From the IMG/VR virus record IMGVR_UViG_3300042691_025170, positions 36,579 through 100,578 of that record: DNA of 64,000 nt. The stretch is one strand, 5' to 3'. Positions within the stretch are counted from its first letter, which is position 1; each line of letters starts with the position of its first letter. The position numbers were made by a program, and so were the translations under genes. Origin of the DNA: a virus. This document shows, in pieces, positions 6,821 to 60,803 of this stretch. The notes under the pieces were generated by a model. The model was not told the DNA's origin. It was given only the letters and a program-made list of their open reading frames with translations, and did not search any database.

Positions 6821-6821
6821 T

Positions 6822-7482: not shown

Positions 7483-7496
7483 TAGTATATTACAAC

Positions 7497-10033: not shown

Positions 10034-10073
10034 ATTTGTATATACTTATATATGTAAATAAAATATATAGGTT

Positions 10074-10277: not shown

Positions 10278-10286
10278 AAATTATTT

Positions 10287-15197: not shown

Positions 15198-15205
15198 TAC
15201 AAGAT

Positions 15206-15856: not shown

Positions 15857-15863
15857 TTAAAGT

Positions 15864-18558: not shown

Positions 18559-18992
18559 TACTAATATCACATAGAGGAAACATAAACGGCAAATTGCCGG
18601 AACTGGAAAATAGTATTGATTATATAAATAATGCAATCAAATTAGGTTACGATGTAGAAATAGATGTATGGATGATTGAAGGTGTATTGTTTCTTGGACA
18701 CGATGAACCTCAATATGGAATAACTCAACATTGGTTAAATGAAAGGTGTACCAAACTTTGGATACATTGTAAAAATATAGAAGCAGTTGAATGGTTTTCA
18801 GACATAGGTGTATTCAATTGGTTTTGGCATGAAACAGATACTATAACTTTAACATCAAACGGATATGTTTGGGCATATCCAGGAAAACAACCTATAAAAA
18901 ATAGTATAGCAGTTATGCCTGAGTTACATAATGATGATGTATCAATGTGTAGTGGGGTTTGTTCAGACTATATTGAAAATTATAAAATATGA
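18555..18992 (+). CDS. Glycerophosphodiester phosphodiesterase-like (GDPD) protein
   Basis: 145 residues. ISHRGN at the start, YDVEIDVW with the two metal-binding acids, and FLGHDEPQYG match the GDPD active site (HRG, E-x-D, GHD). The protein is about half the length of a full GDPD barrel, as in the short forms seen in surface-polysaccharide loci. ATGA overlaps on both sides. The substrate is not known. Confidence 0.82.
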   Translation: MILISHRGNINGKLPELENSIDYINNAIKLGYDVEIDVWMIEGVLFLGHDEPQYGITQHWLNERCTKLWIHCKNIEAVEWFSDIGVFNWFWHETDTITLTSNGYVWAYPGKQPIKNSIAVMPELHNDDVSMCSGVCSDYIENYKI

Positions 18993-19651
18993 AAGTAGCT
19001 TTATTACTAACCGGATTGCCAAGAAAAGTGCAAGAGGGATATGAATATTATTGGAAGCATGTGATAAATTCATATGATACAGATGTATATCTACATTTTT
19101 GGAAAGACGAAGAATATGAAAAAGTATTGGATGTTTATAATCCAGTTAGCTTTATACAACAAAAACCATTTGTATTTACCAATCACAGATTAGGTGTGGA
19201 GTCACCGAATGATGATATGTCTAGACCCATTTCTAGTTATGATGTTGCTGGAAACTTTAGATGCTTACCAATGTTATATAGTTGGCAAATTGGTTACTCA
19301 TTAATTCAAGGTGAATACGATTGTGTGATAAGAAGTAGATATGATTTGGGATCAAACTATCCAATTAACATTAATAGTCTAAATCTTGAAAATGTTAATA
19401 TATCAAATCATCATTGGCCAGACTCACCCATAACCGATGACAATCTGTGTATAACAAACAAAATCAACTCAGATAAAATATTCTCCGATATATTTAATGA
19501 GTTTGTTTACCACATAAAAAAAACTGGTGTTATACATTTTGCTGAGAAAAATTTTATGGAAATTCTTCAAAGAAAAAATATGTATGAAAAAGTGAGAAAA
19601 TGTAATGAATTACCATTTACTCTACTTAGAGAAAATAAACTTTGGTATTAA
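18989..19651 (+). CDS. Putative glycosyltransferase
   Basis: 220 residues. VALLLTGLPRKVQEGYEYYW with DVYLHFW is the opening of a family of sugar-locus proteins with a GT-A-like fold. CVIRSRYDLG is the probable donor-binding region. A relative (223 residues, at 23037-23708) is in the same island: both combine a VYLHFW/VYFYIF strand with a later R-x-R/TRFD segment. The function is inferred from context. Confidence 0.65.
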   Translation: MKVALLLTGLPRKVQEGYEYYWKHVINSYDTDVYLHFWKDEEYEKVLDVYNPVSFIQQKPFVFTNHRLGVESPNDDMSRPISSYDVAGNFRCLPMLYSWQIGYSLIQGEYDCVIRSRYDLGSNYPININSLNLENVNISNHHWPDSPITDDNLCITNKINSDKIFSDIFNEFVYHIKKTGVIHFAEKNFMEILQRKNMYEKVRKCNELPFTLLRENKLWY

Positions 19652-19661
19652 AATTAATAGT

Positions 19662-20852
19662 ATGAAAAAAATAAATTCACCCATTCAATTGTTTAAAGTT
19701 TTTATGAGTCCAACTGCGAAGGTTGAAGTTGGAAAAGTATTAGACAGTGGTTATATAGGTCAAGGCCCAAAAGTAGAGGAGTTGGAAAAAAATGTAGAGC
19801 AATATCTCAATGTAGATAAAGTTCTTTCATTAAATTCGGGAACATCCGCTTTACACTTAGCTCTTCACCTACTAAAAAAACCAAAAGTATTTGCAGCTTC
19901 AGACGGATATTCTTATGTAGAAAATAATTGGCCGGGTATGAAAGATGGAGATGAGGTACTAGCCACGGCAATGACTTGTACCGCTTCAAATTGGCCTATA
20001 CTTGCAAATAATCTTCGTATTAAATGGGTTGACATTGACCCCAAAACTCTTAACATGGATTTGGATGATTTGGAAAGAAAAATTACTCCAAAAACAAAAG
20101 CAATAGTTGCCGTACATTGGGGAGGTTATCCAATTGATTTGGATAGGCTAAAACAGATACAAAACAAAGCATTTCAAATGTATGGATTTAAACCAGCTAT
20201 TATTGAAGATGGTGCACATTCATTTGGATCGGAGTATAAAGGTAAGAAATTGGGAAATCATGGTAACATGGTTATGTATAGCTTACAAGCAATTAAACAC
20301 ATAACAGCCATAGATGGTGGTTTACTTGTATTACCTTATCAAGAACTCTATAACAGAGGAAAACTAATGCGTTGGTATGGTATAGACCGAGATGGAAACA
20401 GAAAAGATTTTAGATGTGAGGCTAACATAGACGAGTGGGGTTTTAAATTTCACATGAATGATGTATGTGCAACTGTTGGTATAGAGAATTTAAAATACGC
20501 TGATGAAATAATCTCTAAACACAGATCTAACGCAGCATTTTATGATAAAACATTATCTAATACAACCGGTGTTACTCTATTAGAAAGAAATGAAAATCAT
20601 AATTCCGCTTTTTGGATTTATAGTATGCTTGTAGAAAATAGAGACGGTTTTTATAAATGGATGAAGGAATGTGGTATAGTAGTTTCACAAGTTCATGAAA
20701 GAAATGATAAGCATACAGCTGTATCAGAGTATAAATGTGCTTTACCTACTTTAGAAAAAACAATCGGTAAAATAGTATCTATACCAGTTGGATGGTGGAT
20801 TACCGATGAGGAGAGAGAATATATTTCCGAATGTATAAAGAAAGGGTGGTGA
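19662..20852 (+). CDS. DegT/DnrJ/EryC1-family PLP aminotransferase
   Basis: 396 residues. VLSLNSGTSALHLALHLL is the cofactor-phosphate segment, IIEDGAHSFG contains the Asp that contacts the pyridine nitrogen, and MYSLQAIKHITAIDGG carries the Schiff-base lysine (about residue 212). It would aminate a keto-sugar nucleotide. I chose 19662, ten bases after the previous stop; the earlier in-frame start at 19605 lies inside that gene. It overlaps the next gene as TGATG. Confidence 0.93.
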   Translation: MKKINSPIQLFKVFMSPTAKVEVGKVLDSGYIGQGPKVEELEKNVEQYLNVDKVLSLNSGTSALHLALHLLKKPKVFAASDGYSYVENNWPGMKDGDEVLATAMTCTASNWPILANNLRIKWVDIDPKTLNMDLDDLERKITPKTKAIVAVHWGGYPIDLDRLKQIQNKAFQMYGFKPAIIEDGAHSFGSEYKGKKLGNHGNMVMYSLQAIKHITAIDGGLLVLPYQELYNRGKLMRWYGIDRDGNRKDFRCEANIDEWGFKFHMNDVCATVGIENLKYADEIISKHRSNAAFYDKTLSNTTGVTLLERNENHNSAFWIYSMLVENRDGFYKWMKECGIVVSQVHERNDKHTAVSEYKCALPTLEKTIGKIVSIPVGWWITDEEREYISECIKKGW

Positions 20853-21319
20853 TGTATTCTATATCTTTTAGAGAAATGGTGTTGGATGATTTACCAACAT
20901 TCTTAGAAATAAGAAATTTATCAAATCAGTACCTGCATAATAATAGTACTTTTTCCATAGACGAAGCAACTAAGTGGTTTAAAGAAACTCAGCCAAAATT
21001 TTTTGTCATAGAGATTGAAAATAAAATTGTTGGATATTTCAGAACATCTAATTGGGATACCAATAGTTTATATATTGGAGCAGACATACACCCCGATTTT
21101 AGAGATAAAGGTATAGGGTATCAATCATATCTTATGTTTATAGATTTTTTGAAGAAGAAATATTCTATAAATAAATTGAAATTAGAAGTACTATCTACTA
21201 ATAAAAGAGCTAAGCATTTATATGAAAAAATTGGCTTTAGTGTTATTGAAATAAAAAGAAATGACATATTTAGAGATGGTGAGTATATTGATAATTTTGT
21301 TATGGAGTTAAAAATTTAA
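20852..21319 (+). CDS. GNAT-family N-acetyltransferase
   Basis: 155 residues. IGADIHPDFRDKGIGYQSY is GNAT motif A with the acetyl-CoA pyrophosphate loop (RDKGIG); LEVLSTNKRAKHLYEKIGF is motif B. It follows an aminotransferase directly (TGATG overlap at 20850-20854), so N-acylation of the amino sugar made by that enzyme is likely. Confidence 0.93.
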   Translation: MYSISFREMVLDDLPTFLEIRNLSNQYLHNNSTFSIDEATKWFKETQPKFFVIEIENKIVGYFRTSNWDTNSLYIGADIHPDFRDKGIGYQSYLMFIDFLKKKYSINKLKLEVLSTNKRAKHLYEKIGFSVIEIKRNDIFRDGEYIDNFVMELKI

Positions 21320-21323
21320 GGTT

Positions 21324-22070
21324 ATGGTAATTGATTTGTTTTCCATATGTTATAATGAAGAGGTAATAATACCTTATTTTTTAAAGCACTACAAACAATT
21401 TGTTAATAACATAACTGTTTATAACAATGAATCCACGGACTCATCAGTTCAACTACTTGAAAACGCAGGCGTTAACATAATTAATTTTTCAACTAATAAT
21501 CAAACTAATGAAATGAAGTTAGTTGATATACGAAACAATTGTTGGAAAAATTCAAAAGCAGATTGGGTAATTGTATGTGACATAGATGAGTTTGTATATC
21601 ATCCCAACATATTGAACATACTTGAAAATACAAAAGCTACGCAAATATATCCAGAAGGATACGAGATGATGTCAGAAAACTTACCAACAACAGAAGGTCA
21701 GATATATAATGAAATCAAAATGGGATATTCTACTGACAATTTTGATACTAATATATACCCAGGTTGGAAAAACACTTATTCAAAAGGATGTGTTTTTAAG
21801 CCAAGTGAAATTGAACCTAATTTTGGACCGGGTTCACACTGGTGTTTTCCTCAAGGTAATTTTATACCGGAAAAAAATAGTGGAATAAAATTATTGCACT
21901 ACAAATACTTAAATAGGGAAATGTTGATTAAAAAATATGACTTATATAGATCAAGACATGGTGATTTTGATAAACAAAATGGATTAGGTAATTATCAAGA
22001 ATGGGGTGCTGAAGAAATAAATAAACAATTTGATAGTTGGCTACCTATATGTAAAAATGTTATAGACTAA
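21324..22070 (+). CDS. Glycosyltransferase, GT2/GT92-like
   Basis: 248 residues. IDLFSICYNEEVIIPYFLKH, VYNNESTDSS and ADWVIVCDIDEFVY form the Rossmann core and D-x-D motif of DUF23/GT92-like enzymes. Residues around GPGSHWCFP and LLHYKYLNRE complete the fold. It is closely similar in layout to the gene at 25694-26455. Confidence 0.87.
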   Translation: MVIDLFSICYNEEVIIPYFLKHYKQFVNNITVYNNESTDSSVQLLENAGVNIINFSTNNQTNEMKLVDIRNNCWKNSKADWVIVCDIDEFVYHPNILNILENTKATQIYPEGYEMMSENLPTTEGQIYNEIKMGYSTDNFDTNIYPGWKNTYSKGCVFKPSEIEPNFGPGSHWCFPQGNFIPEKNSGIKLLHYKYLNREMLIKKYDLYRSRHGDFDKQNGLGNYQEWGAEEINKQFDSWLPICKNVID

Positions 22071-22072
22071 AG

Positions 22073-23053
22073 ATGAAAAGAGCATTAATAACAGGTATAA
22101 ATGGACAGGATGGTTCTTATCTATCTAAATTTTTATTAGATAAAGGATATGAGGTACATGGTCTGTTGAAAAGAAATTCCATAGCTGAAAACCAAACAGC
22201 TAGAATAGATGATAGTACATTTTCAAAATTAAGTTTGCATTATGCTGACATGACGGATATAGCATCATTATTCAGAGTCATAAATAAAATAAAACCAGAT
22301 GAAATATACAATTTAGCTGCACAATCTCATGTTAGAATATCGTTTGACCAACCCATATATACTGCAAATGTTACTGCTATAGGAGTATTAAATTTACTAG
22401 AGGTAGTTAAAGAAGTGTGCCCTAAATCAAAGATATATCAAGCATCTTCTTCGGAAATGTTTGGTAATTCAATAGATGAAGATGGTTATCAAAGAGAAAC
22501 CACACCCATGAACCCAGTATCACCATATGGGTGCTCCAAAGTTTTTGCATACAACATATGTAGAAATTATAGAAATTCATATGGTATGTTTATAGCAAAT
22601 GGTATATTGTTCAATCACGAGTCTCCACTTAGAGGTACTAATTTTGTAACTAACAAAGTAGTAAAGGAAGCGGTAAAAATAAAATTGGGATTGTCTAACA
22701 AATTAGTTTTGGGTAATTTAGAAGCAGCTAGAGATTGGGGACACGCTAAAGACTATGTTGAAGCAATGTGGTTAATACTTCAACAAGATAAGTCAGATGA
22801 CTTTGTATGTGCGACCGGAATATCTCATACTGTTAGAGAATTATGTGAGTATGTATTTTCATCTTTAGGAATGGATTGGAAACAATATGTCATTAATGAT
22901 GAAAAATATTTTAGACCAGAAGAATTGGATGTATTAAAAGGTGATTGCACTAAGCTTAAAAATTTGGGATGGAGTCCACATTATACATTTGAATCTATGT
23001 TAGATGAAATGATTAAATATTGGCTTGATAAATACAATGAAGATAGGCATTAA
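22073..23053 (+). CDS. gmd: GDP-mannose 4,6-dehydratase
   Basis: 326 residues. It converts GDP-D-mannose to GDP-4-keto-6-deoxymannose. GINGQDGSYLSKFLLDKGY is the diagnostic N-terminal NADP-binding sequence of Gmd. SSSEMFG, PYGCSKVFAYN (Tyr, Lys) and LFNHESPLRG are the family's conserved blocks; RDWGHAKDYVEAMWLIL follows. Products could feed the ColD-like enzyme at 24544 or a fucose route ending in the GT11 at 23701. Confidence 0.96.
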   Translation: MKRALITGINGQDGSYLSKFLLDKGYEVHGLLKRNSIAENQTARIDDSTFSKLSLHYADMTDIASLFRVINKIKPDEIYNLAAQSHVRISFDQPIYTANVTAIGVLNLLEVVKEVCPKSKIYQASSSEMFGNSIDEDGYQRETTPMNPVSPYGCSKVFAYNICRNYRNSYGMFIANGILFNHESPLRGTNFVTNKVVKEAVKIKLGLSNKLVLGNLEAARDWGHAKDYVEAMWLILQQDKSDDFVCATGISHTVRELCEYVFSSLGMDWKQYVINDEKYFRPEELDVLKGDCTKLKNLGWSPHYTFESMLDEMIKYWLDKYNEDRH

Positions 23054-23708
23054 TTTAGTTGGAGTATCTTATAATGATAAGAAACACGGAGGCAGATATA
23101 GAAATTATAGGGATGCTATAGATTCTTTTTTCGATAATATAGTTAATCCATTAAGAAATGATGGACATGAAGTGTATTTTTACATATTCAGCTATCATAA
23201 TAAAAAGCAACAAGATATTATAAATGACTACAATCCAGTTAAGTATAATTTTGTAGACCCTATTTATAATAAAATGGGTGGTGGTGATAGACTGGAAAAT
23301 GGAATGAAGATAATGTCTGTTATTTACATCAATAGTTTACAACAACTAATTGATGAAAATTTAGATTTGATAATATCAACAAGATTTGATATAAAATTTA
23401 TAAGAAATCCTTTTATTGATTACAAATTTGATTTTACAAAATGTAACTTTTTATGGAGAGAACCAGAATATGTAGATTTACCTTTAGTAAATGATACATT
23501 CATAGTCTTTCCACACTCAATGACAAGAAATCTAATAGATGCAATTACTACAATGGAATTTAACCCACCGATGGGTATAAATGTAGCTATGCATAATTTA
23601 TATTTACCAATGGTTAATCAAGTTGGTAGAGATAAAGTACAATGGGTTTGTGATGAATTTGTAGATACAATAAATAATAAACTATATACGTTAACTAGAC
23701 ATGAATAA
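23037..23708 (+). CDS. Putative glycosyltransferase
   Basis: 223 residues. IGINLVGVSYNDKKHGG then HEVYFYIFSYH and LDLIISTRFDIKF suggest a GT-A-like enzyme related to the one at 18989-19651. The ATG at 23037 lies inside the end of gmd (17-base overlap); it also overlaps the fucosyltransferase gene by 8 bases. Specificity is unknown. Confidence 0.65.
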   Translation: MKIGINLVGVSYNDKKHGGRYRNYRDAIDSFFDNIVNPLRNDGHEVYFYIFSYHNKKQQDIINDYNPVKYNFVDPIYNKMGGGDRLENGMKIMSVIYINSLQQLIDENLDLIISTRFDIKFIRNPFIDYKFDFTKCNFLWREPEYVDLPLVNDTFIVFPHSMTRNLIDAITTMEFNPPMGINVAMHNLYLPMVNQVGRDKVQWVCDEFVDTINNKLYTLTRHE

Positions 23709-24525
23709 AATATACTCCACAGCTTTTTTAATGGGTGGTTTGGGAAATCAGATGTTCCAAATAGCACATGCTACCGCACAGAGTTGGAAACATGGTGTTG
23801 ATACAATGTTTTACATGGACTCTGAAATACAATATCCGAGTTGGAAGCCGGTTATGTATGTTGATAACATCTTTAAAAAAATTCCATTTACAAATCAGAA
23901 AATAAATGCACATCGTGTGTATGAAGAATCTTGGAATACAGCAAACTTAAATTTTGTTTTTGACAAAACTATAGAGTTTTATGGTTATTTTCAGAGTAGT
24001 AAAAATTTTACAGGCTACGAAAGTAATGTTAAAGATTTATTTTACCCAGATGATAGTATCTATGAAAAACTATCTAAAAAATATCCACAAATAATGTATG
24101 AAAATACTTTATCTGTACATATCAGAAGAGCAGATTATTTCAATGTTAGTAATATACTACCTGTAGTTGACTTGACATATATAAATGAATGTATTAGACT
24201 GCATGGAAACTATGATTATATGTTCATATTTTCAGATGACAAAGATTGGGCAAGAAATGCTCTATCTTACGAGAATAGTGTAGTAGTCGATTCTTTAAAA
24301 ACTGAAGAAGAGATGTGGTTGATGTCAATGTGTAAACATAATGTAATATCCAATTCAACATTTTCTTGGTGGGGTTCTTATCTAAATAAGAACAACGATA
24401 AAAAAATATACGCACCAAGTATTTGGTTCGGCCCAGGTGGCCCGAGTGAGTATAGTAATGTGTATGAAACCTATTGGAATAAAATTGATGTCGTATATAA
24501 AGAAGGTAGATTGATTGTTGCATAA
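23701..24525 (+). CDS. Alpha-1,2-fucosyltransferase-like (GT11)
   Basis: 274 residues. MGGLGNQMFQIAHA is the start of GT11 enzymes, LSVHIRRADYFN is the conserved HxRRxDY motif that binds GDP-fucose, and VISNSTFSWWGSYLN is the third diagnostic block. It transfers a 6-deoxyhexose, usually L-fucose, from its GDP form. The nearby gmd supplies the precursor; no obvious GDP-fucose synthase is in the window. Confidence 0.93.
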   Translation: MNKIYSTAFLMGGLGNQMFQIAHATAQSWKHGVDTMFYMDSEIQYPSWKPVMYVDNIFKKIPFTNQKINAHRVYEESWNTANLNFVFDKTIEFYGYFQSSKNFTGYESNVKDLFYPDDSIYEKLSKKYPQIMYENTLSVHIRRADYFNVSNILPVVDLTYINECIRLHGNYDYMFIFSDDKDWARNALSYENSVVVDSLKTEEEMWLMSMCKHNVISNSTFSWWGSYLNKNNDKKIYAPSIWFGPGGPSEYSNVYETYWNKIDVVYKEGRLIVA

Positions 24526-24543
24526 TAACTTAAATAAATAAAG

Positions 24544-25701
24544 ATGATTAAACTTGTTTCAGATACTATAGATAGAGCTGATATAAACGCATTGATAGAA
24601 TGGTTATCTAAAGAAGAGATTCCAATTCTTACAAAGAATAAATTAACGGTTGAATTGGAAAAAAAATGGGCTGATAAAATTGGAACAAAATATTCAGTTT
24701 TTGTTAACTCAGGTTCATCTGCTATTTTATTAATGTTATTGTCTCTTAAGCAAGGTAATTTCTTAAGAAATAATAAAATAGTATGCCCAGCATTAAGTTG
24801 GGCAACGGATGTTAGTACACCAATAATACTTGGCTTTGATACTATACTATGTGATTGTAATCTAACCGATTTATCGTGTGACCTAACAGAACTTGAAAAA
24901 ATATTTAAGGAAGAAAACCCATCTTGTTTTATATCGGTAGCACCACTTGGTTTGGTTCCTGAAATGGAAAAATTAATTTCACTATGTGAAAAGTATAATG
25001 TTTTATTACTTGAGGATATTTGTGAATCTTTAGGATCTAAGTACAATGGTAAACATCTTGGGTCTTTTGGATTTGCTTCAGTATTTTCCACATATTTTGG
25101 CCACCATATTAGTACGATTGAAGGTGGGTTCATAAATACTAATGATGAGCAACTATATAATATGTTAGTAATGACTAGAAGTCACGGATGGGACAGAGAC
25201 TTGAATGAAACAAATAAAGAAGAACTTAGAAAAAAGTATAATGTATCACGTTTTGATGCGTTGTATACATTTTATGTACCAGGTTTGAATCTCAGATCAA
25301 CAGACTTGCAAGCTTTCATAGGTCTTAGGTCATTAGACAAAATAGACAAATTCTCTAATATAAGAAATACTAATTTTAAATTGTATAAGTCAAAAATAAA
25401 AAATAACAATTTAGACTTACAAGTTCAAAACGATTCATTTGTATCTAATTTTGCATATCCAATTGTTTCTGAAAAGAGAGACGTAATTGTAAATGAATTG
25501 ATAAAAAATGGTGTTGAAGTAAGACCTTTAATTGCTGGAAATATGGCTAATAAACCTTTTTGGTATGAAAGATATGATAGAAAAGAATTTAAAAATGCTA
25601 ACGTCATTGACAGATATGGGTTCTATGTTCCAAATCATCAGGACATGACCAATGAAGATATAGAGTATATTTGTAAAATAATAAATTTACAATATGAATA
25701 A
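24544..25701 (+). CDS. PLP-dependent sugar 3-dehydratase-like (ColD/E1 type, DegT fold)
   Basis: 385 residues. VNSGSSAILLMLLSL and LLLEDICESLGSKYNGKHLG are DegT-fold cofactor segments. At the Schiff-base position the sequence is STYFGHHISTIEGGF: His187-His188 stand where aminotransferases have a lysine. This His substitution marks GDP-4-keto-6-deoxymannose 3-dehydratase (ColD) and the E1 enzyme of 3,6-dideoxyhexose pathways. With gmd two genes upstream, a GDP-3,6-dideoxy sugar such as colitose precursor is the natural guess. Confidence 0.85.
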   Translation: MIKLVSDTIDRADINALIEWLSKEEIPILTKNKLTVELEKKWADKIGTKYSVFVNSGSSAILLMLLSLKQGNFLRNNKIVCPALSWATDVSTPIILGFDTILCDCNLTDLSCDLTELEKIFKEENPSCFISVAPLGLVPEMEKLISLCEKYNVLLLEDICESLGSKYNGKHLGSFGFASVFSTYFGHHISTIEGGFINTNDEQLYNMLVMTRSHGWDRDLNETNKEELRKKYNVSRFDALYTFYVPGLNLRSTDLQAFIGLRSLDKIDKFSNIRNTNFKLYKSKIKNNNLDLQVQNDSFVSNFAYPIVSEKRDVIVNELIKNGVEVRPLIAGNMANKPFWYERYDRKEFKNANVIDRYGFYVPNHQDMTNEDIEYICKIINLQYE

Positions 25702-26455
25702 ATTGGTAACAATATATGTCGTAACTTATAACGAAGAGGCCATGATTGAATTTTTTATCAATCATTACAGAAAAAATTTTCCCGATTGTACAATAAATGT
25801 ATATGACAATTTTTCAACAGATAGAACAAGAGAAATAGCAGAATCAATGGGGTGTGTAGTTCACACTTTTGAAACAGATGGATTTGATGACTCAGCTAAT
25901 GTTGCGTTGAAAAAAGAGAAATGGAAAACCGCAACTACTGATTGGGTGATTGTTTGTGATTGTGATGAGTTGATAGAAATAAATCAAAATGATTTACTCT
26001 TAGAATCTGAATTGGGGTACGAAATCATACTGTTCGAAGGTTACACTCTTATGAACAATAAGACAAAAGAGGTTGATTTAAATAACTTAAAGTATGGGTT
26101 TAGAGATTATTCGTATGACAAATACTATTTGTTTAATAGAAATAAAATAATAGATATAGGATATAATTATGGTTGTCACAGATCCAACAATAATGCACCG
26201 GTTGCTATATCCGGTAATCCAAAAATAGGTTCTTCAAAAGTTTATAAAGCTTATCATTACAAGTATCTTAGTTTAGATTATTGTATAGAAAGAAGAAGAA
26301 TGTTTGCTAAAAGAGTATCTAACTTTAATAAGCAAAGAGGATTTACATTGGAATACCAAAAAACAGAAGAAGAATTAGTATCGGATAAATCCATGGAACA
26401 CTTGAGTTTAAAAAAAATATTCAACGAAACACAACTAATAAAAATAATACAATAA
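25694..26455 (+). CDS. Glycosyltransferase, GT2/GT92-like
   Basis: 253 residues. VTIYVVTYNEEAMIEFFINH, VYDNFSTDRTREIAESMG and DWVIVCDCDELIEI supply the GT-A core and D-x-D. KAYHYKYLSLDYCIERRRMF matches the later part of DUF23-like transferases. Overlaps its upstream neighbour by 8 bases and the downstream one by 1 base. Confidence 0.88.
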   Translation: MNKLVTIYVVTYNEEAMIEFFINHYRKNFPDCTINVYDNFSTDRTREIAESMGCVVHTFETDGFDDSANVALKKEKWKTATTDWVIVCDCDELIEINQNDLLLESELGYEIILFEGYTLMNNKTKEVDLNNLKYGFRDYSYDKYYLFNRNKIIDIGYNYGCHRSNNNAPVAISGNPKIGSSKVYKAYHYKYLSLDYCIERRRMFAKRVSNFNKQRGFTLEYQKTEEELVSDKSMEHLSLKKIFNETQLIKIIQ

Positions 26456-27216
26456 TGAAAAACAGAACATCAATATCAGACTACGACAGATACAAAACTG
26501 TTTGTAAAAATGCTTATGAAAATGAAGAAAGTTTTCGTATATTTAAACAAAATTTAGATTACAAAGTAATACTAGAGCATGTGTCATTTGAACAAGGAGA
26601 TAGATTTATAGATAGAACATTAGAGAATAATAACATAAATTATGATTATATAAATAAATTTAAAGAAAATGATATTTACGGAACGCCAGATTTGTTTACA
26701 TACAGACATCCGTTTGGTTTGATATCTCCGTCCACTTTAAGGTATGTCAAAGTACTTAGTGATTTGATAAAATTTTTTGGAAGTTTAGATAATATGTCAA
26801 TAGTAGAAATAGGAGTTGGATATGGTGGTCAGGCAAAAATTATTATGGACTACTTTAATATAAAGGAATATAACTTCATAGATTTGCCGGAAGTTTGTTC
26901 ATTGACTAAAAAATATTTATCAAAATTTAATTACTCAAATTGTAATTTCTTAGATTTTGAAAATCTTCCGGATAGAAAGTATGATTTGGTAATATCAAAT
27001 TATGCAATAACAGAGTGTACTATGGAAATTCAAAATCTTTATATAGATAAGGTTCTTAAAAATTCTACAAAAGGATATATGATTGGTAACAAAATTTCTC
27101 ATCTGTTCAATATAAATAGTTATAGTAAAGAAGATTGGCAGCAAATTATGCCAAATATAACAATACATGAAGAAGTACCAGCTACAGCGGAAGGTAATTA
27201 TTTAATGATTTTTTAA
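26455..27216 (+). CDS. Putative sugar O-methyltransferase
   Basis: 253 residues. VEIGVGYGGQAKIIMDYF is a SAM-binding motif I, with YNFIDLPEV and DLVISNYAITE as later motifs. The pattern (PFGLISPSTLRYVKVL before motif I) is that of the putative sugar O-methyltransferase family found in polysaccharide loci. It would cap or decorate a glycan chain. Confidence 0.85.
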   Translation: MKNRTSISDYDRYKTVCKNAYENEESFRIFKQNLDYKVILEHVSFEQGDRFIDRTLENNNINYDYINKFKENDIYGTPDLFTYRHPFGLISPSTLRYVKVLSDLIKFFGSLDNMSIVEIGVGYGGQAKIIMDYFNIKEYNFIDLPEVCSLTKKYLSKFNYSNCNFLDFENLPDRKYDLVISNYAITECTMEIQNLYIDKVLKNSTKGYMIGNKISHLFNINSYSKEDWQQIMPNITIHEEVPATAEGNYLMIF

Positions 27217-27224
27217 ATTTATAT

Positions 27225-27998
27225 ATGAGTAAGTTATTAAGTTGTTATTTGTGGGCGTTTAAAAATTACAAAGCGGGTATTAAGTCTGTTAGCACAGTTA
27301 GAAAATTTTATCCAAATGCAGATGTATTTATAAATGTTGATTTTGAGGGTGATTTCGATAACTACACAAGAGAAGGAAATGAAATAAATGCAGTAGTTAC
27401 AAAGAATAATTTTCAACTTGGTTATTGCGGAGACTTCAATAGTATTTATGGTAAAGTTACAGTTGGTAGAGAATGTTGGCCAAGAGAATATACTTTTGAA
27501 TGGTTAAGAGGTGTATATGATGCCTGTCTAAAAACAGATTCCAAATATATCCTTTTACTCGAAGAAGACGATTATGTACTGAAACCAGTTTCAATTTTAC
27601 AAACAGAGTTTTCTATCGCAATACATCCCACAGACCCATCTCCAATTGGAGTTAGAAGAGCTAACTATATACCAAATGAATTTATTATTTATTCATATGA
27701 GCATGGTGGTGTAGCTACATCACCTGGATATGCAGCCGGTGGTGGTACTATTTTTAATAGAGAGCACTTTGTAAAAGCTTGGGAAAAGTCTAAAGATGCT
27801 TTGTGGAAAGACTATGATTATCTTAAGCAAGTAAACAAAATAATAGGTTGGCAAGATTTTGTTTTTCAATTCGTGTTTATGATGGGCGGATATGATGTCA
27901 TACAGAATCATAATCTTTGCGAAGAGTGGGAAGTTAAAGATTGGAAAAATTTTGAAATAGTAACCGGTTTGAAAGACCATACCCTTGTAGAATTATGA
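27225..27998 (+). CDS. Glycosyltransferase-like, GT-A fold
   Basis: 257 residues. LLSCYLWAFKNYKAGIKSVSTVRKF-type opening and YILLLEEDDYVLKP as donor motif (EEDD). AAGGGTIFNREHFVKAW and GWQDFVFQFVFMMGG are compatible with a sugar transferase. ATGA overlap with the next gene. Family level only. Confidence 0.7.
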   Translation: MSKLLSCYLWAFKNYKAGIKSVSTVRKFYPNADVFINVDFEGDFDNYTREGNEINAVVTKNNFQLGYCGDFNSIYGKVTVGRECWPREYTFEWLRGVYDACLKTDSKYILLLEEDDYVLKPVSILQTEFSIAIHPTDPSPIGVRRANYIPNEFIIYSYEHGGVATSPGYAAGGGTIFNREHFVKAWEKSKDALWKDYDYLKQVNKIIGWQDFVFQFVFMMGGYDVIQNHNLCEEWEVKDWKNFEIVTGLKDHTLVEL

Positions 27999-28846
27999 AA
28001 GATGTATTAATTGGATGTATAACAAACTATACTTTTGATAAAGTAAAATACTTTGTAAACTCAATAGATAGGAGTGGATTTACGGGTTATAAAGTAATGA
28101 TTGTATATAATGTACCATTCGAAACAGTTGATGAGTTGCAGAAAAGAAATTGGATAGTAATAGCTTTTAATAAAGATGATGACAAAAAATGGTATACATA
28201 CAAAAGTGATTTCAGAATAATGTGTGATAGACAATTGCATTACCATCAAACATTAGAACAACTCAATAAACAATTTGGAGACTTACGGTATGTGATGGCA
28301 ATAGATCCAAAAGATGTTGTCTTTCAATACAATCCATCCGAATGGTTGGAAAAAAATATGGGTGACAAAAAAATAAATGTTGGATGTGAAAGTCTGAGAT
28401 ATAAAGACGAACCTTGGGGAAAAAATAATCTAACAGAAAGTTTTGGAGAATATGTCTATGATAGATGCAAAGACAATTTAATATTCAATTGTGGTACTGT
28501 AGCTGGTAATTGGAAAACTATGAGTGAATTGTTTCTAAACATATATTTGATGTGTATAGGTAGTCCAAACCAAACACCAGACCAAGCCGCTTTAAATGTT
28601 TTATTATCAATGGACATATATAGGAATATCACTAGATTTACGATGTCAGAAGAAGCGTGGGCTTGTCAAGCTGGTACTACAATAGATGAAAAAGTTCTGA
28701 AGACAAGCAAGGATAAATTAGTCGAACCTCAACCATATTTGGAGGGTGATATAGTTAAAACGAGTAAAGGTATAATATACGCATTAGTTCATCAGTATGA
28801 CAGAATACCTACTTGGAAAGATATAATTGAAAAAAAATATTCTTAA
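27995..28846 (+). CDS. Glycosyltransferase-like protein
   Basis: 283 residues. YVMAIDPKDVVFQYNPSEWL resembles the donor-binding D-x-x-D segment of nucleotide-diphospho-sugar transferases, and FNCGTVAGNWKTMSELF and TPDQAALNVLL fit the later part of that fold. Upstream parts are less typical (IGCITNYTFDKVKYFVNSI). The acceptor is not predictable. Confidence 0.7.
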   Translation: MKDVLIGCITNYTFDKVKYFVNSIDRSGFTGYKVMIVYNVPFETVDELQKRNWIVIAFNKDDDKKWYTYKSDFRIMCDRQLHYHQTLEQLNKQFGDLRYVMAIDPKDVVFQYNPSEWLEKNMGDKKINVGCESLRYKDEPWGKNNLTESFGEYVYDRCKDNLIFNCGTVAGNWKTMSELFLNIYLMCIGSPNQTPDQAALNVLLSMDIYRNITRFTMSEEAWACQAGTTIDEKVLKTSKDKLVEPQPYLEGDIVKTSKGIIYALVHQYDRIPTWKDIIEKKYS

Positions 28847-28847
28847 A

Positions 28848-29339
28848 ATGATAGTTGGAAAAGGAGACATAGCATCTGTACTAAATGATAGGTATGATAT
28901 CATATTTTTTGCATCAGGTGTATCAAACAGTTCTGAAACAAGAGATAGTGAATTTCAAAAAGAAATAGATTTACTATTAAAGCAAGACAAAAGTAAGTGT
29001 GTATATTACTTTAGTTCGATAGCATTAGATATTTCAGATAAGGTAGTAAATAGATATTATTTACACAAGCTTCAAATGGAAGCATTGATAAAATCTAACT
29101 TTGAAAATTATGTGATAATAAGAATAGGGAATATAAATTGGGGTAAAAATCCAAATACATTTCTGAATGCTATGAGAAATAAAATCATGAATAACGAACC
29201 GGTTCACATAGTTGACGAGTACAGATATATTATAAACAAAGAGCAGTTATTATTGATGACAGATAACCTACCATCAAAAGGTCAGCATCAAATATCTGTC
29301 TTTGGTAGAATGGCTAAAGTAAGAGATTTATTAAAATGA
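28848..29339 (+). CDS. Short NAD(P)-binding epimerase-like protein
   Basis: 163 residues, about half an extended SDR. VGKGDIASVL is a minimal nucleotide-binding start, VYYFSSIAL supplies the Ser and RYYLHKLQMEALI the Tyr-x3-Lys pair. The substrate domain is small. It starts one base after the preceding stop. It may be a reductase for a keto sugar or a degenerate relative of the epimerase at 14334. An in-frame ATG at 28827 lies inside the preceding gene. Confidence 0.72.
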   Translation: MIVGKGDIASVLNDRYDIIFFASGVSNSSETRDSEFQKEIDLLLKQDKSKCVYYFSSIALDISDKVVNRYYLHKLQMEALIKSNFENYVIIRIGNINWGKNPNTFLNAMRNKIMNNEPVHIVDEYRYIINKEQLLLMTDNLPSKGQHQISVFGRMAKVRDLLK

Positions 29340-30238
29340 AAGGGTTAATTAGTATATTCGTAATGCCTCAAGAATTAGAGGATTTAGCACAAACACTTGA
29401 TAGATTAAAAAGAAACGCAGCGTTTTTAGATGACTCGGTTAAGTTTAAAATAGACATAACGATGTGTTTATCAGATGAACTGACGGATTGGAATAAATCA
29501 AGACTACCTAAAGAATACATAAAAGAAAGAACAGAAGAATTAGTTGAAAAATATACTGATTGGTGTTCTGAAAGATGTTTAGAATTTGAGATAAATGATA
29601 AAACATTGGGATGTGTATCACAAAGAAGAAAGAGTTGGAAAGAAAATCCAAATGTAGATTTTTTCATTTGGTTGGATACGGATATGTTTTTTAAAGATGT
29701 AACTCTTTACTATTTAGTAGATGCTTTCAAGAGGGTTAAAAATGGTGGTTATGATATGTGTGTTGTAACTCCAGAATTTGTTAAACAATGGGACAACACA
29801 TGGGATGTAATAGTCAATAAAAAGTATCATTATGCACCTCTTGATTACTACAAAACAGTAGATATAGAAAAAGAATCCTTATCAAACAATTCCGAGATAT
29901 CAATAATAGAAATACCAACATTCAAATTTGCAGGAGGATGGTTTACACTTATATCAAAACCATTATTGGACAAGATAGGCGTTCCTGAATCATTTGGACA
30001 CTATGGTTTAGAGGATACTTTTGTAATGGTATGTGCTAATATAATGAAACAATCGGGTAAATTAGTTTCACAATTTGTTTTAGAAAATATCATAGCCGGA
30101 GAAATTCATAAGAATAGAACTAACAGAACAATCAAATCTTTCATTAGTTCTATTGACCGAAAAGATGAATTTAAACAAATAGCACACCAAAATTGGGAAA
30201 AAGAGGTTAAAAGTTTTATAGATTCAATAAAAGTTTGA
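29336..30238 (+). CDS. Glycosyltransferase-like, GT-A fold
   Basis: 300 residues. DFFIWLDTDMFFKD contains the D-x-D metal motif, and FAGGWFTLISKPLLDKIG with FGHYGLEDTFVM matches the acceptor-side segment (G-x-x-D/E-D-T) of GT2/GT7-like enzymes. It is the last gene of the continuous sugar island; a 24-base gap follows. Confidence 0.82.
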   Translation: MKGLISIFVMPQELEDLAQTLDRLKRNAAFLDDSVKFKIDITMCLSDELTDWNKSRLPKEYIKERTEELVEKYTDWCSERCLEFEINDKTLGCVSQRRKSWKENPNVDFFIWLDTDMFFKDVTLYYLVDAFKRVKNGGYDMCVVTPEFVKQWDNTWDVIVNKKYHYAPLDYYKTVDIEKESLSNNSEISIIEIPTFKFAGGWFTLISKPLLDKIGVPESFGHYGLEDTFVMVCANIMKQSGKLVSQFVLENIIAGEIHKNRTNRTIKSFISSIDRKDEFKQIAHQNWEKEVKSFIDSIKV

Positions 30239-30657: not shown

Positions 30658-30966
30658 ATGGATAACTGGTATTCGGTATTAATAACTATAATTACTATTT
30701 TAGGTGGTACAACCGCATGGAGATTTCTTGAAAAACGTGCTCTAAAGAAAGAAAGAGATGACGAATTTATTAGATTAGATTGCCGAGACAGAATAGCTAA
30801 GTTAGAAGCATTATTGAAAGAAGCAGCAGATGAAAAAGACGAATTAAGACAACTTGTATTGAAATTAACTTCAGAGGTAGCTGAATTACGTGTTAAAGTA
30901 GAATTTCTAACAGAGGAAAATCAAGAATTACTTAGAAAATCAAGAAAGAAATTATTGAATGATTAA
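30658..30966 (+). CDS. Membrane-anchored coiled-coil protein
   Basis: 102 residues. One N-terminal membrane segment (VLITIITILGGTTAW), then a long charged coiled coil (about residues 30-100, heptads through LRQLVLKLTSEVAELRVKV). This topology suits an i-spanin-like or holin-associated protein, but other roles are possible. It overlaps the next gene by 8 bases. Confidence 0.65.
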   Translation: MDNWYSVLITIITILGGTTAWRFLEKRALKKERDDEFIRLDCRDRIAKLEALLKEAADEKDELRQLVLKLTSEVAELRVKVEFLTEENQELLRKSRKKLLND

Positions 30967-31603
30967 GTTAAAAGGATTACTGACAGAAATTTTTACCAAA
31001 CCTTCTACATATGTGTGGAATGGTTATAAAATTCAAACAGGTAAAATATACAATAATCCATTTCATACTGCCTTTAGACCTCTTCAAGAAGCAGATGCAC
31101 CGGTAGGTAAAAAATTGAGAATATTTGATTTTGATGATACTTTAGTTAAAACCAATTCTTTCATATACATAAAACATAAAGATGGTAGAAAATCAAAATT
31201 GACACCTGGTGAATATGCTGTATACGAGCCAAAGGTTGGAGATGAATTTGATTTCTCAGACTTTGATAAAGTTAGTCAACCAAAAGAATTAAGACAAACG
31301 ACTAAAATACTAAAAAGGTTTGTACAATCGGAAGGTGAACGTAAAATTGTCATACTAACGGCAAGGTCTGCTTATAAACCAGTCAAAGATTATTTGAGAG
31401 ATATAGGATTTGATGGTATATATGTGGTAGCATTGGGAGACGCAGACCCACAAAAAAAAGCAGACTGGATTGAAGATAAGATAAAAACAGGATACACGGA
31501 TGTATTTTTTATTGATGATTCTCATAAAAATGTAAAAGCTGTATCGGATTTGAAGAAGAAGTATCCAGATGTGAAGTTTAAAATCCAACAGGCAAAGCAC
31601 TAA
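30959..31603 (+). CDS. HAD-superfamily phosphatase with possible head-targeting leader
   Basis: 214 residues. The HAD motifs are FDFDDTLV (about residue 58), LTARS, and FFIDDSHKN, close to polynucleotide 3'-phosphatase-like HADs of large phages. The first ten residues, MIKLKGLLTE, match in length and ending (L-x-E) the capsid-targeting leaders cleaved by T4-type prohead protease. The substrate is unknown. Confidence 0.85.
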   Translation: MIKLKGLLTEIFTKPSTYVWNGYKIQTGKIYNNPFHTAFRPLQEADAPVGKKLRIFDFDDTLVKTNSFIYIKHKDGRKSKLTPGEYAVYEPKVGDEFDFSDFDKVSQPKELRQTTKILKRFVQSEGERKIVILTARSAYKPVKDYLRDIGFDGIYVVALGDADPQKKADWIEDKIKTGYTDVFFIDDSHKNVKAVSDLKKKYPDVKFKIQQAKH

Positions 31604-51653: not shown

Positions 51654-51974
51654 ATGGAAAATATAGTACTACCGATGTGTATACTCGGTATTTTTTTATT
51701 TATGTATGGGTACAGAAAAAAATACCTAAATTATGAAGAATATCCTTCTGCCCCTGTATCTAAACTGATACCTCATTGGTATGAGATTAAGTCATGCCTA
51801 AATGACAGTATAAAATATACTGGCCCTTTTATATTCACTCCTTTTATGAAAGGTGATGTGGTGGTAGATGAGGATGGTCAGAAATATGAAGTTGGTAATA
51901 GAGTAAGAGAAAATCCGAAAGATAACATAATAGTAGTTTCAAAAACAATACGATGGAGATGCGAACCCCAATAG
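51654..51974 (+). CDS. Small membrane-anchored protein
   Basis: 106 residues. N-terminal membrane helix (IVLPMCILGIFLFMYGYR), then a soluble part with FMKGDVVVDEDGQKYEVGNRV, which looks like a small beta-barrel. I chose 51654 (TTATGG) over 51594, which lies in the structured leader. The end overlaps the cupin gene by 22 bases. Confidence 0.7.
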   Translation: MENIVLPMCILGIFLFMYGYRKKYLNYEEYPSAPVSKLIPHWYEIKSCLNDSIKYTGPFIFTPFMKGDVVVDEDGQKYEVGNRVRENPKDNIIVVSKTIRWRCEPQ

Positions 51975-52354
51975 TCTTTAATGCTAAAGAATGTAAAGAG
52001 TGTAATGTCCCAAAAGGTTGGGGACATGAAATCATTTTTGAAAACAATGAACTTTATTGTGGAAAACTTTTGTGTTTCAAGAAGGGAGCAAAGTTTTCTA
52101 TGCACTATCATCTGATTAAAGATGAAACTTGGTATGTGAAAGAAGGTGAGTTCATCTATCGTTGGATTAATACAGTAACAGCGGAGGTAAAAGAAGTCCT
52201 ACTAAAAGAGGGAGATACCGTCAGACAATTACCTGGCCAACCACATCAATTGGAAGCATTAACAGAGGGTGTTATATTTGAAGTATCCACACAACATTTT
52301 GATTCCGACTCTTACAGAGTTTGGAAAGGAGATGGTCAAATAACTAAAATATGA
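51953..52354 (+). CDS. Cupin-fold sugar-phosphate protein
   Basis: 133 residues. A single cupin domain: GWGHEIIFENNELYCGKLL, then KFSMHYHLIKDETWYVKEGEF with His residues and a Glu as metal ligands, and LPGQPHQLEAL as the second motif. Resembles the cupin half of mannose-6-phosphate isomerases. It overlaps the heptose nucleotidyltransferase gene by four bases, so it probably acts on a sugar phosphate in that pathway. 51959 is an alternative start. Confidence 0.85.
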   Translation: MEMRTPIVFNAKECKECNVPKGWGHEIIFENNELYCGKLLCFKKGAKFSMHYHLIKDETWYVKEGEFIYRWINTVTAEVKEVLLKEGDTVRQLPGQPHQLEALTEGVIFEVSTQHFDSDSYRVWKGDGQITKI

Positions 52355-52749
52355 AAATTTGGGTGAACGGAACATTTGATGTCCTACACATAGGACACAT
52401 TAGACTATTAAAGTATGCGGCATCTTTAGGTGAATTGCGTGTTGGTATAGACACCGATGAAAGAGTTAAACGATTGAAAGGTGATGGCAGACCTTTTAAC
52501 AATTTAGGTGAACGTATAGAGTTTCTAGCCTCTTTGAAATTTGTAAAAGATGTCGTAACTTATACCACAGATGAAGAACTGGAAAATCACATAAAAAACT
52601 ATAAACCAGATATTATGGTGAAAGGTTCGGATTGGAAAGGCGGAAATATAATAGGTGGACGATATGTGAATGATATTCGTTTCATAGATATGGTAGAAGG
52701 TAAATCAACAACAAAAATTTTAAACTATGAAAGTAACGGTAATAGGTGA
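52351..52749 (+). CDS. Heptose-1-phosphate adenylyltransferase-like (HldE C-domain type)
   Basis: 132 residues. VNGTFDVLHIGHIRLL contains the HxGH motif of the cytidylyltransferase fold. GDGRPFNNLGERIEFLASL, PDIMVKGSDW and KSTTKIL match the RfaE domain II that forms ADP-heptose from heptose-1-phosphate and ATP. Encoded separately from the kinase. The end overlaps the kinase start by 23 bases. Confidence 0.92.
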   Translation: MKIWVNGTFDVLHIGHIRLLKYAASLGELRVGIDTDERVKRLKGDGRPFNNLGERIEFLASLKFVKDVVTYTTDEELENHIKNYKPDIMVKGSDWKGGNIIGGRYVNDIRFIDMVEGKSTTKILNYESNGNR

Positions 52750-53464
52750 GATATGTGAAGATATATTTGTATATGGTGAGTCCAAAAGATTAAGCCCAGA
52801 AGTACCTGTTCCTGTTTTTGTACCCAAGCGTTCATCTGCTAATAAAGGAATGGCAGGTAATGTAGTACAAAATTTACTAGCTATAAATCCAAGTTGTGAT
52901 GTTATTGGTTTTCATCAAAGTCGTTCAATAAAGAAAACAAGATATGTACATGATAAAACAAACCATATGTTTTTACGAGTTGATGAAGGTGAAGTAGTTG
53001 AAAATTTTGTAATGACTGAACATATCTTAAAACGAATCATAGAATCTGATATTGTTATTATCAGCGATTATGACAAAGGATATTTGGACAAGCATGATAT
53101 TCGTTCTATATCATCAAATAGTAAATTGTGTATTCTTGATTCTAAAAAAGTGTTGGATACCTATACTATAAAATCCGTAAGGTTTGTCAAACTAAACGAA
53201 ACCGAGTTTCAAAATAATAAATTTGACGATTCCGATATTAGTAAAATTATTATCACACGTGGTATAGATGGTACTGATTATATGGGTAATAATTATCCCT
53301 CACCCAAACCTATCCAAACTATGGATGTTAGTGGAGCTGGCGATACATTTACCGCCGCCTTTGCTATAAAGTATTTTGAAACAAAGGAAACTAAACAATC
53401 AATCATTTATGCCAATGAAATGGCAAGTATTGTAGTATCTAAAAGAGGAGTAGCAACACCATGA
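52727..53464 (+). CDS. Heptose-7-phosphate kinase-like (PfkB family, HldE N-domain type)
   Basis: 245 residues. VTVIGEICEDIFVYGESKRLSPEVPVPVF-type start and KGMAGNVVQNLLAI are RfaE domain I features; DIVIISDYDKGYLD follows, and DVSGAGDTFTAAFA is the PfkB catalytic motif with the base Asp. It is shorter than the usual 310 residues. ATGA overlap with the epimerase gene. Confidence 0.92.
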   Translation: MKVTVIGEICEDIFVYGESKRLSPEVPVPVFVPKRSSANKGMAGNVVQNLLAINPSCDVIGFHQSRSIKKTRYVHDKTNHMFLRVDEGEVVENFVMTEHILKRIIESDIVIISDYDKGYLDKHDIRSISSNSKLCILDSKKVLDTYTIKSVRFVKLNETEFQNNKFDDSDISKIIITRGIDGTDYMGNNYPSPKPIQTMDVSGAGDTFTAAFAIKYFETKETKQSIIYANEMASIVVSKRGVATP

Positions 53465-54288
53465 AAAATGTAATAATTACAGGTACAAAAGGATTTATTG
53501 GTGGCAGACTATTGAATAGACTAAAGGGTGAATTCAATTGTTATGAAATAAACGAAGACATATTTGATAGTTCTGATTTGACAAAGGAAATAGATAACAT
53601 CATGTTTAATGTGAATCCGGTAGCCGTGTTTCATGTTGGAGCATGTTCCAATACATTAGAAACTGATGTAAACTATATGATGAGTAGAAATTTTGAATTC
53701 ACCAAAATACTATCAGATCAATGCACTTTGTATAAACATAACATACCATTTGTATATTCTTCTTCCGCTGCAAATTATGGTATAGACGGAACTAGTCCTT
53801 CAAATCTATATGGATGGAGTAAATATGTAGCTGAACAATATGTTACACTAAATGGTGGTGTAGCTCTACGCTACTTTAATGTGTACGGACCAGGCGAAGA
53901 ACATAAAGGTAAAATGTCATCAGTTGCTTTTCAAATGTGGAAAAAGTATAAAAGAGGTGATATTATAAAAATATTTCCTGGCAAACCTCAGCGAGATTTT
54001 GTTTACATTGAAGATGTAATAGAAGCTAATATTGAAGCATATAAAAATTATGACGAATACCATTTCCACTGGTTTGATGTTGGTTATGGTGAGTCAAGAA
54101 CATTTGAAGATGTTTTGGATATAATGGCAATACCATTTGAATACACGGATGAAAACGATATTCCAAAAGGATATCAGTTTTTCACAAAGAGTAATCCCGA
54201 TAAGTGGATGAGTGGATGGAAGCCAAAATATCCAATAGAAGTTGGATTAACCGAATATAAAAAATATCTTGAAAATGGAAAATTCTAA
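53461..54288 (+). CDS. hldD: ADP-glyceromanno-heptose 6-epimerase
   Basis: 275 residues. It epimerises ADP-D-glycero-D-manno-heptose to the L-glycero form. Rossmann motif GTKGFIGGRL; HVGACSNTLE; YSSSAANYG; LYGWSKYVAE (Tyr, Lys); and the HldD-specific RYFNVYGPGEEHKGKMSSVA and RDFVYIEDVIEA. FFTKSNPDKWMSGW matches the family end. The last gene of the heptose set. Confidence 0.95.
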   Translation: MKNVIITGTKGFIGGRLLNRLKGEFNCYEINEDIFDSSDLTKEIDNIMFNVNPVAVFHVGACSNTLETDVNYMMSRNFEFTKILSDQCTLYKHNIPFVYSSSAANYGIDGTSPSNLYGWSKYVAEQYVTLNGGVALRYFNVYGPGEEHKGKMSSVAFQMWKKYKRGDIIKIFPGKPQRDFVYIEDVIEANIEAYKNYDEYHFHWFDVGYGESRTFEDVLDIMAIPFEYTDENDIPKGYQFFTKSNPDKWMSGWKPKYPIEVGLTEYKKYLENGKF

Positions 54289-60143: not shown

Positions 60144-60280
60144 ACGTATTTGATATATTTTTACAATACCTTTTTGGTGGAATGTTGATTACAACTGTAC
60201 TGATGTTGGTATATGCTGTAATCAAGGAATTAATTAGTGATTTTATATATTATAGAGACAAGTACTTTAACAAAAAATAA
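60140..60280 (+). CDS. Very small membrane protein
   Basis: 46 residues. FLQYLFGGMLITTVLMLVYA is a membrane helix with a basic end (YYRDKYFNKK). It shares the VYAxIKE pattern with the preceding gene (VYAFIKE and VYAVIKE), so the two are probably duplicates. Confidence 0.6.
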   Translation: MNVFDIFLQYLFGGMLITTVLMLVYAVIKELISDFIYYRDKYFNKK

Positions 60281-60281
60281 T

Positions 60282-60803
60282 ATGGTAGGTAAGGTAATAT
60301 TCATTGATATTGACGGCCCCCTTGCATGGGGAACTTGGACTGATGGTTCGGTAAAAATCACGGAGGGAACTCAACAAGAATTTACCATACCATATTCTTG
60401 GGTTAAAGAAGATTGTGATGCACTTGCTGAGATTATCAAACGGACTAATGCAAATCTTGTGGTGTCATCTGATTGGAAAAAGCACTATGGTATATTCCAA
60501 CTCAAAAGAATATTTGAGCATTACGAGATTGGTGGGTGGTCTGTATTAGACACGACTACACATTTCAATCCTGTTAGAAAGCTTAGTTCACCTCCTGAGT
60601 GGGACAGAGCCTGTGAGATTAAGACATGGGTTAAATCGTTCCGACCAAAACATTGGATTACGATTGATGATATGCCACTCAATATTTCCTTCAAACGATT
60701 GGGTATTCCACAATGGAGGCATGTTCAAGTTGATGGTGACTTTGGAATGGGTGGCAGACTCCGCGACAAAATTGAAGAGTGTGTTAATAAACTAAACAGA
60801 TAA
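60282..60803 (+). CDS. HAD-like protein (Swiss-army-knife RNA-repair HAD type)
   Basis: 173 residues. VIFIDIDGPLAWGT contains the HAD nucleophile region, LVVSSDWKKHYG motif II, and HWITIDDMPLN motif IV. The short form without a cap suits the HAD_SAK group, linked to RNA 3'-end repair. I chose 60282 (TATGG, one base after the previous stop) over 60237. Confidence 0.82.
   Translation: MVGKVIFIDIDGPLAWGTWTDGSVKITEGTQQEFTIPYSWVKEDCDALAEIIKRTNANLVVSSDWKKHYGIFQLKRIFEHYEIGGWSVLDTTTHFNPVRKLSSPPEWDRACEIKTWVKSFRPKHWITIDDMPLNISFKRLGIPQWRHVQVDGDFGMGGRLRDKIEECVNKLNR

Follow-up and report, generated by a model that had tools for sequence, protein, structure and literature searches.

We analyzed a cassette of four overlapping genes at positions 51953–54288 of a 64,000-nucleotide stretch of viral DNA (the window, bases 36579–100578 of the linear virus record IMGVR_UViG_3300042691_025170, which totals 100,578 bases and is incomplete). 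The genes encode a cupin, a nucleotidyltransferase, a short kinase, and an epimerase (Table 1). Our best explanation, which we hold with moderate confidence, is that they make ADP-heptose and that its main sink is a fusion protein of the same phage, GT4-TibC, which would heptosylate the phage's own Ser/Thr-rich collagen-like fibers. The record contains T4-like genes and has 34% GC, and its DNA polymerase is nearest to that of Microcystis phage Mel-JY01 (48% identity), followed by cyanophages (∼30%). Its source is a large aquatic virus of bacteria.

In the proposed pathway, the cupin would act in place of GmhA and convert sedoheptulose 7-phosphate to D-glycero-D-manno-heptose 7-phosphate, to which the short kinase would add the 1-phosphate. 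The 7-phosphate would then be removed by host GmhB, by another HAD protein, or by a HAD-like mini-protein (mini-HAD) encoded in a stretch of the genome that the record does not cover. The nucleotidyltransferase would form ADP-D,D-heptose, and the HldD-like enzyme would convert it to ADP-L,D-heptose. Finally, the GT4-TibC fusion would put heptose on serines of the two collagen-like fibers, where its GT4 half and the neighboring FkbM-type methyltransferases may lengthen and methylate the glycan. What the sequences show is homology, motifs, how the operons are built, fusions of genes, and co-occurrence; we infer each catalytic step, the cupin reaction, and the acceptor.

The four genes each start with ATG, overlap successively by 4–23 bases, and encode enzymes with intact catalytic motifs. 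Open reading frame positions and family searches confirmed what the initial annotation had described from the letters, namely overlapping cupin, RfaE-II, RfaE-I, and HldD neighbors. For the nucleotidyltransferase, kinase, and epimerase, the top NCBIfam model was that of the heptose family, with every score under its equivalog cut-off: 108.5 bits for rfaE_dom_II (TIGR02199; cut-off 181.5), 118.8 bits for rfaE_dom_I (TIGR02198; cut-off 345), and 174.7 bits for heptose_epim (TIGR02197; cut-off 274.6), respectively. The corresponding Pfam scores were 56.7 (CTP_transf_like), 51.8 (PfkB), and 92 (Epimerase). A chance origin of the cassette is excluded because the module recurs in cyanophages and in tens of IMG/VR loci. 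The known ADP-heptose pathway uses a homologous kinase, adenylyltransferase, and epimerase, which implies the same reaction order. In contrast to that pathway, the phage has a cupin instead of the SIS-fold GmhA, and its kinase and nucleotidyltransferase are separate and shortened, with all scores below the curated cut-offs. From sequence, we regard the assignment of the cassette to the ADP-heptose pathway as probable.

The kinase, for which TIGR02198 was the best family by far, is a divergent short relative of HldA/HldE-N and not an equivalog. Its motifs (RLSPEVPVPV, GMAGN, SDYDKG, D-KK, and GAGDTF) are conserved in viral homologues. The seven best Foldseek matches of its AlphaFold2 model (predicted local distance difference test score, pLDDT, 94) were all Burkholderia HldA chains, with an E-value of 3.7e-18 for HldA compared with ∼4e-13 for ribokinases. 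It is ∼70 amino acids shorter than HldA/HldE-N, owing to one loss of ∼26 residues after the GGAANV motif and several short ones. In the tree, the viral short kinases group in one clade (support 100/99), separate from full-length cellular kinases, and therefore constitute an old viral family. With the viral short kinases clustering by themselves, a recent host origin of the gene is unsupported.

In the PDB, the epimerase matched HldD enzymes in each of its top four rows, the first being E. coli HldD (1eq2; E 1.9e-31). In the alignment to 1eq2, the SSA, YxxxK, and HKGxMxSVAF motifs line up, and the Rossmann GxxGxxG, the Ser/Tyr/Lys catalytic residues, and the HKGxM lysine are kept both there and in viral homologues. 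The nucleotidyltransferase is the least certain heptose enzyme by sequence, despite having RfaE-II as its top profile (the runner-up among single-domain models, glycerol-3-phosphate cytidylyltransferase, scored 58.7 bits). It retains the HxGH (HIGH) and STTxI motifs and is homologous to T4-GC 304 (39–43% identity), and its top PDB match by sequence is ethanolamine-phosphate cytidylyltransferase. The heptose-pathway reading of the initial annotation was borne out by the HldA-like structure of the kinase, the HldD matches of the epimerase, and the intact motifs. We found neither a placement in unrelated sugar families nor active-site loss in the epimerase or kinase, the outcomes that had been named beforehand as refuting it.

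The cupin lacks the SIS fold (PF13580/TIGR00441) of GmhA, and we propose it as an unrelated, purely functional replacement, a candidate sedoheptulose-7-phosphate isomerase. It matched Cupin_2 with 29.6 bits (cut-off 27.2) and Lyx_isomer (PF07385) with 20.8 bits, exactly the gathering cut-off. The best Foldseek match of its AlphaFold2 model (pLDDT 90) was the D-lyxose isomerase 7nzp with bound D-fructose (E 4.5e-8). D-lyxose isomerase converts a ketose to a 2,3-cis aldose, the same stereochemistry as the GmhA reaction. The cupins of the D-lyxose isomerase and mannose-6-phosphate isomerase type, which are aldose–ketose isomerases giving 2,3-cis (manno) aldoses, share the fold and the His/His/Glu/His metal site with the phage cupin, whose ligands H51, H53, E58, and H98 are invariant across 29 viral homologues. 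They differ from it in sequence (∼20% identity), and the phage family is found in heptose operons and fusions.

Genomic context points the same way. We surveyed the retrieved flanks of 100 distinct viral records carrying the kinase and found the nucleotidyltransferase in 65, the cupin in 41, the mini-HAD in 30, and HldD in 22; searches of these flanks seeded with E. coli GmhA and GmhB found neither. The cupin was also present in 28 of the 30 loci with the mini-HAD, and in a viral sample seeded with the cupin itself, a kinase, nucleotidyltransferase, or mini-HAD was adjacent in 31 of 42 long-flank loci. A cupin profile scan of 84,980 prokaryote species yielded 69 loci, among them two Woesearchaeota gene fusions: an HldE-N kinase fused to the cupin and followed by GmhB (L145:7050-8357), and GmhB, cupin, and HldE-C in a single protein with a kinase upstream (L149:7425-8849). 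Neither of these two genomes gave any SIS_2 or GmhA match. An RfaE-I kinase occurred in 29 of 40 cupin genomes, 23 of which had no GmhA-like protein (at least 80 bits); one of the 23 (G006) has a strongly matching SIS_2 protein, though of a different type, and of the six GmhA-positive exceptions, three (G037–G039) contain virus-like cupin loci. By comparison, among 91 other genomes with RfaE in a phylum sample, GmhA was absent from only 14 (P = 4e-10), and in a sample of 98 genomes drawn by class, each of the 13 strict-cupin genomes (at least 147 bits) was GmhA-less, while 57 of the other 85 were GmhA-positive (P = 3e-6); these P values are indicative only, as the genomes are mostly metagenome-assembled genomes (MAGs) with shared ancestry. 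The initial annotation had left the GmhA step to the host, but the cassette's own cupin is a good candidate to carry it out.

A serious alternative, which we nevertheless doubt, is that the cupin is not this isomerase but a mannose-6-phosphate isomerase, a nucleotide-sugar keto-isomerase/epimerase, or a regulator, with heptose 7-phosphate arising via host GmhA. Cupins are functionally diverse, and others, including CapF and oxalate decarboxylase, were nearly as strong in Foldseek as D-lyxose isomerase. Relatives of the cupin in Poseidonibacter and in Binatia (there beside gmd) stand away from heptose genes, cellular relatives adjoin gmd or a coaD-like gene, and the phage itself has gmd; given the gmd neighbors in Binatia, some members of the family may act as mannose-6-phosphate isomerases. 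Against this alternative stand the near-constant company of cupin and mini-HAD in viral loci and the archaeal fusions, whose partners are only heptose-pathway enzymes in genomes with no GmhA match. A cupin GmhA, if the proposal is true, would close a gap in the way DPANN archaea, Binatia-type bacteria, and phages synthesize ADP-heptose.

Two further sets of cellular loci were observed in the scan. Two MAGs (L099 and L156), neither of which gave a GmhA match, have the gene order HldE, gmd, cupin. In Poseidonibacter and other Campylobacterales (L141, L146, L151, and L154), the cupin lies beside a coaD-like gene in genomes with no RfaE-I kinase, and its role there is outside heptose synthesis. 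We rejected the Poseidonibacter cupin and nucleotidyltransferase as a heptose pair, the genome having no RfaE kinase and the nucleotidyltransferase resembling coaD.

The candidate sink lies elsewhere in the record. The GT4-TibC protein has a Pfam GT9 match at its C terminus and scored 301.4 bits with the autotransporter O-heptosyltransferase model TIGR04414 (cut-off 200). Its TibC domain, the only heptosyltransferase-family (PF01075) match in the record, aligned to the TibC structure 4rap with an E-value of 6.8e-54. Of the residues described for TibC (PMC4358343), it keeps Asp-110, Thr-226, Lys-230, and Trp-305 (TibC numbering) as well as all four Cys residues of the iron finger. The phage domain thus shares with TibC and AAH of the BAHT family the TIGR04414 score, the catalytic Asp, the Thr/Lys pair, the Trp, and the iron finger, and it has Ser at the selectivity position, as AAH does. 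It differs from both in being fused to GT4 and in lying beside collagen-like fibers, not autotransporters.

The gene order in the record is collagen-like fiber genes, then the GT4/FkbM methyltransferase and GT4-TibC genes, the latter downstream of both fiber genes, and then a tail sheath-like protein. A tblastn search of 50,697 phage records found TibC in only 4. Mel-JY01 is one of them, and there the gene immediately upstream of a GT4–methyltransferase–TibC protein is a Ser-rich structural one. Of 41 IMG/VR records with the kinase, 14 had TibC above the cut-off, this phage among them, and the kinase lay at most 7 kb from TibC in 25 of 80 TibC loci. An overlapping TibC–cupin–nucleotidyltransferase–kinase order recurs (L026, L032, and L211; also L030 and L045, without a detected nucleotidyltransferase). 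Many such operons adjoin Ser-rich collagen fibers, and the collagen-like genes beside them reach 2,000 amino acids. At least 20 Gly-X-Y triplets were present at 28 of 80 TibC loci, compared with 5 of 79 viral and 0 of 69 cellular cupin loci. The initial annotation had held that sequence alone does not decide what the heptose is used for; a TibC-type gene that lies beside Ser-rich fibers, and that in relatives shares an operon with the heptose genes, makes that view too cautious.

The residue that governs donor choice offers a further detail. Pro-300 of TibC underlies its choice of ADP-D,D-heptose, and AAH, with Ser-294 at the same place, takes both donors (PMC4358343). At this position, TibC proteins of phage cassettes with HldD had Ser in five of five cases (this phage, L017, L019, L347, and L350), although L017 and L350 are close relatives and the independent cases are fewer than five. 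Cassettes without HldD in the retrieved stretch had Gly in 26 of 26. One more cassette had Thr, and one was unreadable. A donor stereochemistry matched to a single TibC residue would fit the heptosylation of fibers.

Several observations weigh against GT4-TibC and the fibers as the destination of the cassette's product. The acceptors known for the TibC family are passenger domains of autotransporters and not collagen-like repeats. Within the record, 77 kb separate the TibC gene from the cassette, and the gene lies outside the window. Five tested cyanophages have the cassette and lack TibC, and of 25 larger TibC records with no kinase close by, only 1 had a kinase elsewhere, which led us to reject an obligate pairing of TibC and cassette. 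The association is therefore frequent, not obligatory; elsewhere, the ADP-heptose comes from the host or the acceptors are different ones. We found no GmhB-like phosphatase in the incomplete record, where the mini-HAD profile also gave no match, and the mini-HAD of other phages was rejected as a GmhB orthologue (hhalign probability 1.5%, with DxDGT alone aligned). Finally, Arg-286 of TibC is Ala in the phage protein, and the same replacement in TibC abolished or largely diminished activity (PMC4358343). Membership of the phage domain in the TibC family rests on its overall score, and its activity is uncertain.

The product could instead go to the host surface, with phage glycosyltransferases heptosylating lipopolysaccharide (LPS) or capsule and so masking receptors or excluding other phages. 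The cyanophages with the cassette and without TibC would fit this, as would the position of their cassette within "LPS" clusters (PMC3037559) and the presence here of a second glycan cluster (window 13.7–30.2 kb) with GT2, GT11, gmd, and DegT genes. However, apart from the TibC domain the record gave no heptosyltransferase-family match, the operon of relatives holds TibC and not an LPS heptosyltransferase, and the cassette is separate from the glycan cluster in this phage. We consider a host-surface destination unlikely.

Table 1. Positions of the cassette, the fiber glycosylation genes, and other features
Feature	Position	Numbering	Strand	Details
Cupin (PHROG 7851)	51953-52354	window	+	133 aa; Cupin_2, Lyx_isomer matches; proposed GmhA replacement
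HldE-C/RfaE-II-like nucleotidyltransferase (PHROG 7878)	52351-52749	window	+	132 aa; CTP_transf_like, TIGR02199 matches
Short HldA/RfaE-I-like heptose-7-phosphate kinase (PHROG 8133)	52727-53464	window	+	245 aa; PfkB, TIGR02198 matches
HldD-like ADP-heptose 6-epimerase	53461-54288	window	+	275 aa; Epimerase, TIGR02197 matches
GT4-TibC fusion	G000:C1:10606-12747	record (outside window)		713 aa; TIGR04414
Collagen-like fiber gene 1	495-1787	record		Ser/Thr-rich; 59 uninterrupted Gly-X-Y triplets
Collagen-like fiber gene 2	2705-5125	record		Ser/Thr-rich; 139 uninterrupted Gly-X-Y triplets; S74 chaperone domain at end
GT4/FkbM methyltransferase genes	5190-10640	record		neighbors of GT4-TibC
Second glycan cluster	13711-30238	window		GT2, GT11 and gmd, DegT, SDR genes
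Second SDR	14334-15197	window
DegT aminotransferases (two)	19605-20852, 24544-25701	window
GDP-mannose 4,6-dehydratase (gmd)	22073-23053	window
Beta-phosphoglucomutase (beta-PGM)-type HAD	17191-18558	window		fused to NTP_transferase
HAD-like protein	30959-31603	window		by Pfam DUF2608 only
HAD_SAK_2 domain protein	60237-60803	window		RNA-repair type HAD

It is improbable that enzymes of heptose descent have changed substrate and that the cassette yields another activated sugar. The scores of all three heptose enzymes below the NCBI cut-offs, the ∼70 residues lost from the kinase, and the cytidylyltransferase match of the nucleotidyltransferase would agree with such a change. Structure and profile rankings, however, place HldA, RfaE-II, and HldD first, the HKGxM motif of HldD is retained, and relatives carry TibC in the operon.

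The cassette itself is already known from cyanophages, which carry the same genes (PMC3037559), and it cannot be counted as a novelty of this phage. With the kinase as query, tblastn matched 32 phage records, of which almost all are from cyanophages. In P-SSM2, S-CAM3, S-SSM7, P-TIM68, and S-SM2, the neighbors are drawn from GC304 (nucleotidyltransferase), 305 (kinase), 306, 307 (cupin), and 308 (epimerase). The phage under study has clustered homologues of GC304, 305, 307, and 308, with the same nucleotidyltransferase, short kinase, cupin, and HldD-like epimerase, and it belongs with the T4-GC 304–308 cassettes; these also hold the GC306 mini-HAD, which this record lacks. Sullivan et al. (2010) reported that GC 304, 305, 307, and 308 co-occur, asked whether they are functional, and left the purpose of such phage "LPS genes" open (PMC3037559). 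They also raised "stuffer DNA" for such cyanophage genes (PMC3037559), but intact motifs, overlapping genes, the deep viral kinase clade, and recurrent operons in many phages point to selection, and nonfunctional filler or transient cargo is a very remote explanation.

The new, testable parts are the cupin as a replacement for GmhA and the link of the cassette to a phage protein O-heptosyltransferase and collagen-like fibers; literature searches, with most subscription papers beyond their reach, turned up neither a cupin GmhA nor a phage TibC in earlier work. If fiber heptosylation is true, glycosylated virion fibers would answer the question of Sullivan et al. (PMC3037559) for one branch of phages, and the glycosylation could influence adsorption, stability, or recognition. 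Tentatively, and with slightly more doubt than belief, we extend this to many aquatic phages, which would have a self-contained O-heptosylation system with a cupin isomerase shared with GmhA-less archaea and bacteria, a fiber coating, and a residue-matched donor.

For the phosphatase step, the initial annotation had suggested that a HAD protein of the phage could replace GmhB. No HAD found here is GmhB-like, but the beta-PGM-type HAD at 17191–18558 is still a possible source of the activity. In other phages, the mini-HAD may belong to the pathway, as its operon position and its fusions to the nucleotidyltransferase in L048 and L071 suggest. In cyanophages, T4-GC 306 (P-SSM2 copy at L008:7719-8060) is annotated as "phosphoheptose isomerase." Because it carries the motifs DIDGTIC, TAR, K, and DDK, it is by sequence a HAD-like mini-protein and not a SIS isomerase; the present annotation is wrong, and a cupin GmhA would correct it.

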